In this document: positions 61,180 through 64,000 of the stretch, one piece after another
Layout: each line of letters begins with the position of its first letter
Position numbering within the stretch: the first letter of the stretch is position 1
Assembly: GCF_029626225.1 (NCBI RefSeq)
Contig: NZ_JARUBP010000001.1
Span: forward strand, 4,402,001-4,466,000
From: Asanoa sp. WMMD1127
GTDB lineage: Bacteria > Actinomycetota > Actinomycetes > Mycobacteriales > Micromonosporaceae
DNA: 64,000 nucleotides
Direction of reading: 5' to 3'
The notes under the pieces: model-generated
The model's database searches: none
Told to the model about the DNA's origin: nothing
Seen by the model: only the letters and a program-made list of their open reading frames with translations
Program-made: the position numbers and the translations under genes

Positions 61180-61704
61180 GTGCGGGTGCTCGGCGTCGAC
61201 CCGGGGCTGACGCGCTGCGGCGTCGGCGTGGTCGAGGGTGTGCCGGGTCGACCGTGCACATTGGTCGCCTACTACGTGGTCTACACCGACCCCGGCGACG
61301 ACCTGCCGCTGCGGCTGCTGCACCTCGACCGCACGCTGACGGACCTGGTCGCCGAGCACAAACCGCAGAGCGTCGCGGTGGAGCGGGTGTTCAGCCAACA
61401 CAACGTGCGTACGGTGATGGGCACCGCCCAGGCCAGCGCCGTCGCCGTGCTGTCCGGGGCGCGGGCCGGGCTGCCGGTGTCGACCTACACGCCGAGCGAG
61501 GTCAAGGCCGCCGTCACCGGCTCCGGCCAGGCCGAGAAGGCGCAGGTGACGTCGATGGTGACCCGGCTCCTGCGGCTCGACGCGCCGCCGAAGCCGGCGG
61601 ACGCCGCCGACGCGCTGGCGCTGGCGATCTGCCACATCTGGCGGGGCGGCACCAAGGCGAAGATCGAGGCGGCGGCGGCCGTCAGAAGGGCAGGTCGAAG
61701 GTGA
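61180..61704 (+). CDS. ruvC: Crossover junction endodeoxyribonuclease RuvC
   Basis: A 174-residue Holliday-junction resolvase with an RNase H fold. The acidic quartet is visible: Asp in [12 protein letters not shown] (D7), Glu in [11 protein letters not shown], Glu near [13 protein letters not shown], and Asp in [13 protein letters not shown]. It cuts junctions delivered by RuvAB. The start GTG follows GGGGGAGG. Overlaps ruvA by 4 nt. Confidence 0.97.
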
Positions 61705-62300
61705 TCGCCAGCGTGAGCGGGGTCGTCGCCGCGGTGTCGCCGGACGGCGCGGTCATCGAGGTCGGCGGCGTCGGGCTGTCGGTGCACTGCGCCCCCGGCA
61801 CGCTCGCCGGCCTGCGGCTGGGCCAGCCGGCCCGGCTCGCCACCAGCCTGGTGGTGCGCGAGGACTCGCTTACCCTCTACGGCTTCGCCGACGACGACGA
61901 GAAGCACCTCTTCGAGCTGCTCCAGACGGCCAGCGGCGTCGGGCCGCGGCTGGCCCAGGCGGTGCTCGCCGTGCACCACCCCGACGTGGTGCGCAAGGCG
62001 ATCGCCAACGCCGACACGGCGACCCTGACCCGGGTGCCGGGCATCGGCAAGAAGGGCGCCGAGCGCCTGGTGCTGGAGCTACGCGACCGAATCGGCCCGA
62101 TCGCGGTCGGCGGCGACGGCGCGACGGGCGTGGTCGGCGCGGTGTGGCACGAGCAGGTCCGCCAGGGCCTCGTCGGTCTGGGTTGGACGGCGTCGCAGGC
62201 CGACCAGGCCGTGGCCGCGGTGGCCGAGAAGGCGACCGGCACCGAGCCCGTGCCGATGCTGCTCAAGATGGCGATCCAACTGCTCGGCCGCACGCGATGA
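61701..62300 (+). CDS. ruvA: Holliday junction DNA helicase subunit RuvA
   Basis: A 199-residue protein: OB-fold domain I ([30 protein letters not shown]), two helix-hairpin-helix motifs in domain II ([19 protein letters not shown] and [21 protein letters not shown]) and the flexible domain III that contacts RuvB ([22 protein letters not shown]). It recognises four-way junctions. It overlaps ruvC and ruvB by 4 nt each (GTGA, ATGA), forming one tight operon. Confidence 0.97.
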
Positions 62301-64000
62301 GCGAGGTCTCCGCCTACATCGCCGAGGGCGAGAGCGACGCCGAGGCCACGGTCCGCCCGAAACGCCTGGCGGAGTTCATCGCCCAGCACCGCGTACGCGA
62401 CCAGCTGGACCTCCTGCTGCGCGGCGCCATGGGCCGCGGCACCCCACCGGACCACATCCTCCTCTCGGGGCCTCCTGGCCTGGGTAAGCCTGTGTCGGTC
62501 GACGCGCTGGTGCTGCTCGAGGACGGGACGCGGCGGCGGCTCGGCGACGTCGTGGTCGGTGACCGGGTCATCACCCGCACCGGCGAGGCGGCGCGGGTCG
62601 AAGCAGTGCACGAGCAGGGCGAGCTGGATAGCGTGCGGATCCGCACCACGACCGGCCGCGAGGTCGTCGCCGCCCCGGACCATCCGTTCTGGACCACCGA
62701 CGGCTGGGTCAAGGCCGGTGACCTGACGGTCGGGGACAAGCTGGCCAACGTGCTGCGGCCGGAACTGGTCGCCGACGGCACCGAGCGGACCGAGGAGTTC
62801 GCGCTGGCCGGCTACCTGGTCGGCGACGGCTGTGTCACCAACCAGGTCACCTTCACCAGCGGCGACGACGACGTCCTGGCCGACTTCAAGGCGACCTGTG
62901 ACCGCCTGGGCCACCGGCACCTCACCCGGCCGAACTCGGCCAACAGCTCACTCGTGCGGATCTCGGGCCTGCGCGGGTGGTTGGCCGAGCACGGCCTGCT
63001 CGACAAGAACGCCTGGCAGAAGCGCGTTCCGGAGTTCGTGTTCAAGGGCGACGAGTGGCAGGTCAGCGCCTTCCTGGGCGCCTACTTCGCCTGCGACGGC
63101 ACGGTGAGCCGCCGCGGTCGCGACCGCTACGACGTGGTGATCGAGTTCTACAGCGTCTCCCGCGAGCTGTTGCAGGACGTGCAACACCTGTTGCTGCGCC
63201 TGGGAATCCAGTCGCGACTCAAGCTCAAGCGCGGGCTCTACCAAGGCCGTCGCCACGAGTCGTGGCGCTTGAGCGTCACGAGTCAGGACGACGCCGCTCG
63301 GTTCGTCGAGCGGATCACCGTGATCGGGCGGCGGGGCGAGCGACTGCGGGAGTGGCAGCCGCGCCGGGACCGGTTCGAGGAGTCGCTCGCGGTCGACGGC
63401 GTGGCGGCGGTCGAGCCGGCCGGCCTGCACGAATGCCGCTGCCTGACCGTCGCCGGCGATCACACGTTCACCGTCAACGACCTGGTCGTGCACAACACGA
63501 CCCTGGCCAACATCGTGGCGGCGGAGTTGGGCAGTGGGATCAGGGTGACCAGTGGGCCGGCGATCGAGCGGTCCGGGGATCTCGCGGCCATTCTGACCAG
63601 TCTCGGCGCCGGTGATGTGCTGTTCATCGACGAGATCCATCGCATCGCGAAGCCGGCCGAGGAGCTGCTCTACTCCGCCATGGAGGACTTCCGGGTCGAC
63701 GTCGTCGTCGGGAAGGGGCCCGGCGCCACCGCGATCCCGCTCGACGTCGAGCCGTTCACGCTGGTCGGGGCCACCACCCGGTCCGGGCTGCTGACCGGGC
63801 CCATGCGCGACCGGTTCGGGTTCGTCGCGCACCTCGACTTCTACGCCGCCGCCGATCTGGAGGCGCTGCTGCACCGGTCAGCGCGGATTCTCGGCGTCCC
63901 GATCACCGACGAGGGCGCCGTGGAGATCGCCGGGCGGTCGCGGGGGACGCCGCGCATCGCCAACCGGCTGCTGCGCCGGGTCCGCGACTACGCCGAGGTC
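62297..64000 (+). CDS. ruvB: RuvB Holliday-junction motor, interrupted by an intein, partial
   Basis: N-extein: 64 residues ending SGPPGLGK, the first part of Walker A. C-extein resumes with [33 protein letters not shown], Walker B FIDEIHRI, sensor 1 LVGATTRSG and the arginine finger/sensor region [18 protein letters not shown]. Together they form a normal AAA+ RuvB that powers branch migration; without splicing the ATP site cannot form. The gene runs past the right edge. A 336-residue intein (62489-63496) lies between Lys64 and the Thr. Confidence 0.96.
62489..63496 (+). mobile_element. RuvB intein with LAGLIDADG homing endonuclease
   Basis: In-frame insertion of 336 codons. The N-terminal Hint half has [26 protein letters not shown] (block A region) and [22 protein letters not shown] (block B). 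The endonuclease has two catalytic motifs, [11 protein letters not shown] and [12 protein letters not shown], both with the acidic residue. Blocks F/G read [21 protein letters not shown], ending His-Asn before extein Thr. The first intein residue is Pro (codon CCT), not Cys or Ser, which implies either a class 3-like mechanism or loss of splicing. Both exteins are conserved, so splicing is expected. Confidence 0.93.

Follow-up and report, generated by a model that had tools for sequence, protein, structure and literature searches.

The window analysed here is a stretch of 64,000 nucleotides from Asanoa sp. WMMD1127 (Micromonosporaceae; contig NZ_JARUBP010000001.1), near the end of which the gene for the helicase RuvB is interrupted by an in-frame insert with the features of an intein (Table 1). 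The ruvB gene starts at the ATG at 62297, and the codon of its Walker A lysine (AAG) has its last base at 62488. The first codon of the insert is CCT (Pro) at 62489 and the last, AAC (Asn), extends to 63496, followed by ACG ACC (Thr Thr). The insertion point lies between the lysine and the first threonine of the Walker A motif (GPPGLGK/P...HN/TT, with junctions marked by slashes), and the frame is open throughout a RuvB precursor of 681 amino acids (aa), the end of which lies 342 bases beyond the window. An earlier note, made from the letters of this DNA, had placed the insert between these two residues with the RuvB frame intact across it, and its boundaries proved exact to the base.

Pfam profiles matched RuvB on both flanks of the intein (RuvB_N, E 4e-66) and a LAGLIDADG endonuclease inside it (LAGLIDADG_3, E 1e-24). 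The Intein_splicing profile matched the window intein with E 4e-8 and 33.5 bits, slightly below the curated cut-off of 35.8, and was found at E ≤0.001 in all 34 scanned members of the intein family. The AlphaFold2 model of the intein, built with an alignment of 34 relatives, was confident (predicted local distance difference test, 90.3; predicted template modelling score, 0.89), and a Foldseek search with this model returned intein-endonuclease structures, the best of which was TliVMA (template modelling score 0.72). Both LAGLIDADG aspartates are present, as the earlier note had stated, and each is retained in 24 of the 25 distinct copies of 336 aa described below. Judged by its sequence, region 62489-63496 is an intein: it is an in-frame insert with a Hint domain, a terminal His-Asn followed by Thr, and intein-free homologues. 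By the same token its central part is a LAGLIDADG homing endonuclease, with two motifs, their acidic residues and a predicted cleavage activity. The gene ends overlap within a ruvC-ruvA-ruvB cluster, the first two open reading frames (ORFs) of which we take, from their sequences, to be ruvC and ruvA.

Table 1. Features of the intein-bearing ruvB locus (coordinates are positions in the 64,000-nucleotide window; all features are on the + strand)
Feature	Position	Strand	Basis
ruvC (presumed)	61180..61704	+	ORF; context: ruvC-ruvA-ruvB cluster, ends overlap
ruvA (presumed)	61701..62300	+	ORF; overlaps ruvB at ATGA
RuvB N-extein, 64 aa, ends in Walker A GPPGLGK	62297..62488	+	Reading frame, Pfam RuvB_N
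Intein, 336 aa, Pro1 to Asn336	62489..63496	+	Frame, Pfam, relatives, intein-free sites
Pro1 (A:1), codon CCT	62489..62491	+	Alignment of copies
N-terminal Hint part, blocks A and B, residues 1-95	62489..62773	+	Alignment, structure model
His65 (B:10)	62681..62683	+	Block alignment
Phe67 (B:12), Trp in canonical class 3	62687..62689	+	Comparison with class 3 inteins
LAGLIDADG homing endonuclease part, residues ~100-285	62786..63343	+	Pfam, structure model
First LAGLIDADG motif, LAGYLVGDG	62804..62830	+	Alignment
Second LAGLIDADG motif, 10 residues	63071..63100	+	Alignment
C-terminal Hint part, blocks F and G, residues 290-336	63356..63496	+	dN/dS partition, structure model
Cys316 (F:2), other Cys of the C-x-C pair	63434..63436	+	Alignment
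Cys318 (F:4), proposed first nucleophile	63440..63442	+	Alignment
Val334 (G:5), Thr in canonical class 3	63488..63490	+	Alignment
His335-Asn336 (G:6, G:7)	63491..63496	+	Sequence reading
RuvB C-extein from Thr+1	63497..64000, on to window-equivalent 64342	+	Sequence reading

Positions within the conserved intein blocks are given below as block and number, for example F:4 for the fourth position of block F. A scan of genome contigs with patterns lying before and in block B, which touch neither residue 1 nor F:4, identified 19 loci in Asanoa, Micromonospora, Plantactinospora, Actinoplanes and Paractinoplanes. These are 78-93% identical and have the same blocks throughout, with Pro1 and Cys at F:4 in 19/19; together with the window and two copies of loci already in the set they form an alignment of 22 rows. 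A codon search for GPPGLGK followed by any codon not beginning with A was carried out in 354 genomes of Micromonosporaceae and gave 38 matches in 37 genomes. Thirty of the matches are RuvB inteins, while seven genomes had chance matches only and the second match in genome G389 was also due to chance. The intein-bearing ruvB is thus found in 30/354 genomes of Micromonosporaceae; we read the junctions of all 30, and Pro1, Cys F:4, VVHN and the following TT are present in each. This codon search turned up no RuvB intein that has Cys1 or Ser1 at the same site.

In four of six genomes of the same genus ruvB is free of the intein and joins exactly at GK/TT, with 50-57 of 60 bases on each side equal to the flanks in the window; the intein is present in the other two. 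Two trivial explanations of the unusual first residue were rejected: a sequencing error is ruled out by the proline in all 30 carriers, and a junction elsewhere with Cys, Ser or Thr as residue 1 is excluded by the GK/TT joints of the four intein-free genes, found by the comparison with relatives that the earlier note had proposed, together with the constant Pro1. A RuvB protein search matched 353 of the 354 genomes and gave two matches in 32, namely the 30 carriers and genomes G060 and G066. We read the two matches per carrier as the two halves of the interrupted protein (match positions are known for G389), and no carrier has a best RuvB E-value equal to that of the intact ruvB of its own genus. 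In G060 (L200, L202) and G066 (L201, L203), ruvB lies in two adjoining pieces with no insert, probably owing to a frameshift or an assembly error; G062 and G235 gave a single weak RuvB match, and G010 none.

Outside the family, narrower codon searches (Pro, Arg, Ser-TCN, Cys, Trp or a stop codon, then Val, Ile or Met, so that other residues would be missed) gave one match among 397 genomes of the order, family members included, which is an unrelated AAA protein (L093), and among 396 genomes of the phylum returned only the window and L094, which is not RuvB. A plasmid search yielded three weak records. A comparison of host and intein in 20 sequences provided no incongruence that would prove recent homing. 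Because nearest neighbours mostly agree by genus (r 0.72), the patchy spread of the intein (30/354 genomes; 2/6 in the genus) may reflect loss as much as gain.

We used the 25 distinct 336-aa copies to calculate ratios of nonsynonymous to synonymous substitution rates (dN/dS). The median dN/dS was 0.145 for the intein (up to 300 pairs) and 0.095 for the RuvB C-extein (at most 190 pairs), and by part it was 0.124 for the N-terminal Hint part, 0.158 for the endonuclease and 0.094 for the C-terminal Hint part (294 pairs), the last value being close to that of the C-extein. The intein is under purifying selection. The codon for Pro1 varies among these copies (CCG in 19, CCC in four and CCT in two) and the residue is constant. 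Two further RuvB inteins of 221 aa (L064, L065) have an eroded endonuclease and retain Pro1, His B:10, Cys F:4 and the terminal HN.

These data bear on the idea of a decayed element, in which Cys1 has been lost, splicing is dead and RuvB is inactive. A class 3-like intein pseudogene, Arth_1007 of Arthrobacter, is indeed known (PMC3196547), and the canonical class 3 triad is incomplete in the RuvB intein. A decayed intein is nevertheless hard to reconcile with purifying selection on both intein and extein, with the same residues in 30/30 genomes of several genera, with a Pro1 kept despite codon changes and with Hint residues that survive the erosion of the endonuclease. As the two RuvB matches per carrier read as halves of one gene and no best E-value equals that of an intact ruvB, it also fits poorly with the RuvB content of the carriers, and we regard decay as quite improbable.

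Three classes of inteins are told apart by the residue that makes the first attack, and class 3 is known by a Trp-Cys-Thr (WCT) triplet and has been described as monophyletic. As class 3 references, DnaB was searched in 20 genomes taken as mycobacteria, and inteins were read from eight of them; an example has the blocks DAEHQWLT (B), VRCVQV (F) and VPTHN (G). The corresponding blocks of the window intein are APDHPFWT (His65 at B:10, Phe67 at B:12 and Trp68 at B:13), ECRCLTV (Cys316 at F:2 and Cys318 at F:4) and VVHN/T (Val334 at G:5). The earlier note had found a Cys at the expected place in block F, had doubted the Trp and the Thr that precedes the penultimate His, and had suggested an alignment to settle the triplet. 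In our alignment to the class 3 DnaB inteins the Cys is at F:4 and the other two are definitely absent, so that the triplet reads Phe, Cys, Val. The same holds beyond the window: B:12 is Phe in 25/25 distinct 336-aa RuvB copies, and Trp at this position occurs in 0/49 viral rows (two of them misplaced Cys1 rows, see below). Among 63 rows of the intein family, G:5 is Val in 62 and Ile in one, with no Thr; F:4 is Cys in 63/63 and F:2 in 61/63, the other two having Thr or Met.

Class 1 has Cys, Ser or Thr as residue 1, and here it is Pro in 30/30 carriers. Class 2 is defined by a KlbA host, a non-nucleophilic residue 1 and an attack by Cys+1; the present host is RuvB with Thr+1. Three class 3 traits are found, namely the lack of a nucleophile at residue 1, Cys F:4 and Ser or Thr at +1 (Thr in RuvB, Ser or Thr in the viral Pro1 rows described below), and two are lacking, Trp B:12 and Thr G:5. 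By the working definition of PMC7891396, no N-terminal Cys together with Cys at F:4, the sequence is class 3, and by the WCT definition it is outside that class. Of the earlier suggestion of a class 3 variant, therefore, the class-3-like mode of working is supported by the sequence comparison and the membership among signature class 3 inteins is not. Sequences deviating at W and T make up 6.1% and 4.6%, respectively, of the 1701 sequences in PMC7891396, and members of the Pro1 / Phe-Cys-Val family may already be among them.

The closest relatives found outside RuvB are inteins of phage terminases (TerL), likewise inserted after the Walker A lysine. The best-ranked phage matches were TerL inteins of Caulobacter and Brevundimonas phages, which match over the full length with ~34% identity. 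In the seven TerL inteins that we read, Pro follows the Walker A lysine directly (PPGHAK/P), block F has C-x-C-L-T-V, and the C-terminal junction is VVHN/S in six and VVKN/S in one. A viral scan with a RuvB-TerL alignment gave 44 loci, some of them near-identical. Thirty-six carry the block F pattern only, which is uninformative on residue 1, and in 35 of these the start was readable, with Pro in 34 and Glu in one (L125). The three loci with the Pro1 pattern only have Cys at F:4 in 3/3. Many of the viral loci are TerL-like and follow a P-loop lysine, the TerL annotation being available only for GenBank phages. By sequence comparison, the RuvB intein thus belongs to a large family found in phages and actinobacteria. 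This family includes natural mini-versions of 134-161 aa that have no endonuclease (eight viral rows). One Pro1 / CRCLTV mini-intein (L143, 152 aa) follows a Met in another viral protein and not a P-loop lysine.

To relate residue 1 to F:4, we scanned viral contigs with patterns that touch neither position and considered the best 80 of 209 relatives. Of these, 68 loci were readable and 61 distinct; the 12 left out are L274, which has no N-terminus, and 11 loci whose C-terminal block could not be read and whose residue 1, as placed, is Cys throughout. Two rows were placed late (L278 and L284, printed as Leu1 and Tyr1, with a Cys just before and with Asp and Asn at F:4), so the tabulated ratio is 47/49. 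Counting related sequences and not independent events, and uncorrected for phylogeny, Cys is at F:4 in 47/47 rows with a non-nucleophilic residue 1 (Pro 44, Asp 1, Gln 1, Glu 1) and in 0/12 Cys1 rows (Asp 7, Asn 3, Gly 2). None of the non-nucleophile rows has Trp B:12 or Thr G:5, and of the 56 non-Cys placements 52 have Lys immediately before the intein, L278 and L284 being among the remaining four. At B:7, Ala or Glu is found in 45/47 non-nucleophile rows and Thr or Ser in 10/12 Cys1 rows, which is what a loss of the class 1 TxxH spring would predict (PMC6195587, PMC7891396). In a further 32 Cys1 inteins the residue at the F:4 distance is Asp in 26, Gly in two, and Leu, Ala, Thr and Cys in one each. 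Four loci have other residues than Pro at position 1, namely Glu (L125, L249), Asp (L220) and Gln (L245), all with Cys F:4; position 1 evidently tolerates other non-nucleophiles. Four Cys1 inteins (L099, L152, L260 and L276) follow the Lys of a GSAK or SHAK motif and have Gly at F:4, the host being TerL in L099 and L152; they look like a natural contrast at seemingly the same kind of site.

We consider it very probable that RuvB carries a working intein with a homing endonuclease and that this intein, which lacks the class 3 signature, follows a class-3-type route of splicing. A class 1 first step is excluded because Pro has no side-chain nucleophile. Cys318 is proposed as the attacker because F:4 changes with residue 1 and F:4 is the attacking residue in class 3 (PMC5222942, PMC7891396, PMC6195587). 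In the proposed scheme Cys318, aided by His65 (B:10), would attack the carbonyl of the Walker A Lys64 and displace Pro1, giving a branched thioester on block F. Thr+1, the first P-loop threonine, would then take the acyl group, Asn336 would cyclise with the aid of His335 and free the intein, and an O-N shift would leave the native ...GLGKTT..., the P-loop of RuvB becoming continuous only at this point. Pro1 may pre-strain the Lys-Pro junction, by analogy with the AceL class 3 intein, which needs a strained junction and is killed by Ala1Gly (PMC7891396).

Contiguous Lys and Thr are needed for ATP binding by a P-loop. Unspliced RuvB should not bind ATP, because the insert separates the P-loop lysine from the threonine. 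We infer that each carrier lacks a second intact RuvB and that RuvB depends on splicing; assembly of its ATP-binding loop would then wait on a single, possibly redox-sensitive cysteine. Block F also holds a C-x-C pair (Cys316 and Cys318; 63434-63442), which puts another Cys two residues from the proposed attacking thiol. In another class 3 intein, a disulfide bond that involves the block F Cys holds the protein in a locked state (PMC6195587), and by analogy the pair could form a redox or metal switch of splicing.

Two other assignments of the first step were weighed. In a class-2-like route Thr+1 would attack the Lys-Pro bond directly, and Cys318 would only coordinate, like the F:4 Asp of class 1. 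Such a route would suit the non-nucleophilic residue 1 and the class 1-like scaffold seen here, since class 2 likewise has a non-nucleophilic residue 1 and is otherwise class 1-like (PMC3196547). Class 2 is, however, described only in KlbA (PMC3196547), its attacker is Cys+1 (PMC7891396) where the present family has Thr or Ser, and a direct attack by +1 leaves unexplained why Cys F:4 occurs in all 47 non-nucleophile rows and in none of the 12 Cys1 rows; we hold it to be improbable. The conservation of Cys at F:2 (61/63) raises the further question of whether Cys316 is the first nucleophile or both Cys act together. This we judge highly improbable, as F:2 is replaced by Thr or Met in two rows and F:4 in none, and in the DnaBi1 structure F:4 is central between both junctions, the place being occupied by Asp in class 1 (PMC6195587).

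Several points weigh against an attack by Cys318 in a working intein. Not all bacteria require ruvB, and a carrier could therefore put up with an intein that splices slowly or only in part. The co-occurrence of residue 1 and F:4 rests on related sequences, and one of the 32 further Cys1 inteins (L005, from the genome of the window) has a Cys at the F:4 distance, the Asp beside it being more likely its F:4. Cys F:4 is also present in some class 1 inteins and alone is no proof of a role (PMC3196547). Canonical class 3 inteins are impaired by mutation of the Trp (PMC5222942) and their Thr is part of a proposed Cys-His-Thr triad (PMC7664689); the RuvB intein has neither residue. A search of the accessible literature found no splicing data for members of the Pro1 / Phe-Cys-Val family.

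We then compared the scaffold of the family with those of class 1 and class 3. Counted from F:4, the terminal Asn lies 19 residues on in 63/63 family rows and 21-22 in 19/19 class 3 rows; most class 1 rows (26/32) also have a spacing of 19, measured from their F:4 Asp. With the trait positions masked, all 63 family rows score higher on the class 1 profile than on the class 3 profile (medians 89.8 and 34.6 bits), a result that holds with class 1 subsets of equal size and is favoured by the sampling, since some of the class 1 rows had been collected for their similarity to the RuvB intein. A profile search of the PDB, which is free of that bias, placed class 1 inteins best (from E 3e-12, the first being aided by its endonuclease) and class 3 inteins at E 0.035 to 0.16, with several class 1 DnaE inteins no better. 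Two trees were calculated from rows thinned to 78 and 118, both unrooted and short. In the 78-row unmasked tree, class 1 and class 3 each occupy one side of a branch, RuvB falls in a clade with viral Pro1 rows (99/92), and a single clade of all Pro1 rows is unrejected (p 0.543). In the 118-row masked tree, class 1 rows separate the family (100/83) from class 3 (98/95), each of which forms one side of a branch, and an approximately unbiased (AU) test does not reject the family and class 3 together (p 0.435).

Anatomy and profiles thus favour a second origin; the phylogeny is compatible with either a second origin or a joint clade, the larger tree leaning to the former. We give about even chances to a class 1 scaffold that independently gained the block-F-cysteine pathway in the RuvB and TerL inteins, with the phage terminase P-loop as the source of the RuvB insert. 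With the same even chances, Pro would have replaced Cys1 and Cys the Asp at F:4, without the Trp, the Thr or the class 3 insertion between blocks F and G. Somewhat short of even, in our estimate, is descent from canonical class 3 with loss of W and T and no separate origin. This alternative concerns ancestry and not chemistry, is compatible with a class-3-type route, and its probability overlaps with those given for the chemistry. It would agree with the AU test and with the smaller unmasked tree, where class 1 is one side, with the PDB scores of the DnaE inteins, and with the insertion after the P-loop lysine that is common to class 3 DnaB inteins. Pro1 is also found in 4/19 canonical WCT class 3 rows (L292, L293, L301 and L302), where it follows Ala or Gly. 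Descent from class 3 is opposed by the block F-G spacing (19 against 21-22), by the higher class 1 scores of all family rows (on a profile partly gathered by similarity), by the best PDB matches, which are class 1 inteins, and by the class 1 rows between both clades in the larger masked tree.

The RuvB intein can be compared with four kinds of known systems. Canonical class 3 inteins (the mycobacterial DnaB type, MP-Be DnaB and Dra Snf2) are alike in having no Cys, Ser or Thr as residue 1, Cys F:4, His B:10 and Ser or Thr at +1, in often following a P-loop lysine and, in some cases, in Pro1. The RuvB intein differs from them by Phe instead of Trp at B:12, Val instead of Thr at G:5, the C-x-C in block F, the shorter distance from F:4 to the end and the higher class 1 profile scores. 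The split AceL NrdHF intein, an MCT variant (PMC7891396), works by class 3 chemistry, as proposed for the RuvB intein, although it too lacks the Trp, and its B:12 behaves as in class 1; in contrast to the RuvB intein it is split, resides in nrdHF, begins with Ala1, keeps Thr G:5 and has no His at F:13 or G:6. The phiCbK-like TerL inteins (PMC3556154) belong to the same family, with Pro1 after the Walker A lysine, C-x-C-L-T-V and HN or KN before Ser. They differ in the host, a phage terminase, and, as judged by eye, no LAGLIDADG Asp was visible at the corresponding alignment position of L095-L098 and L103. Finally, class 1 inteins of P-loop ATPases (RecA, L033; TerL of Corynebacterium phages P1201 and PotatoChip, L099 and L152) share the spacing and the site after the P-loop lysine, and differ by Cys1, Thr or Ser at B:7 and Asp or Gly at F:4.

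Some elements of this picture are known. RuvB is among the intein hosts in a review table (PMC5874633), and the position after the P-loop lysine is a classic intein site (PMC5050341); a literature search for the phrase 'RuvB intein' gave no match. Pro1 itself is not new, given the canonical WCT rows above and the phiCbK TerL intein, for which the Pro in place of Ser or Cys was noted and Tori 2010 cited for functional Pro1 inteins (PMC3556154). In the accessible text of that paper we found no discussion of the block F Cys, W and T. In the accessible literature our search likewise found no account of the Pro1 / Phe-Cys-Val family, of its resemblance to class 1 in build or of its occurrence in phage TerL as well as RuvB.

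A natural family with only the attacking Cys of the triplet makes two questions testable, whether the block F route can be reached from class 1 and what the Trp and the Thr contribute. The family is built like class 1 and lacks W and T, yet it persists in phage packaging genes, which are essential, and in a repair helicase. A derivation of class 3 from class 1 has been argued to be implausible, as W, C and T grafted onto gp41-1 gave no splicing (PMC7664689). If the class 1-derived reading is true, the class 3 mechanism would be polyphyletic and reachable from class 1, contrary to that argument, and splicing in this family and its speed would test the argument directly. The mini-versions with a Lys-Pro type junction offer a starting point for protein-ligation tools.

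Three Cys1 inteins were observed elsewhere in the genome of the window. The first (L002, G000:C1:2019724-2020491, - strand) is a class 1 intein in a DnaB-like helicase, with the junctions RESG/C...HN/S and Asp at F:4, and shares 31% identity with the RuvB intein over the matched stretch. The second (L003, G000:C1:1452044-1452781, + strand) follows DMGLGK in the P-loop of a seeming SNF2-type helicase. The third (L005, G000:C1:2598217-2598450, + strand) follows ...CSHACTY in a protein resembling radical SAM enzymes; its F:3/F:4 region has Cys-Asp, so that it may combine Cys1 with a Cys close by in block F.

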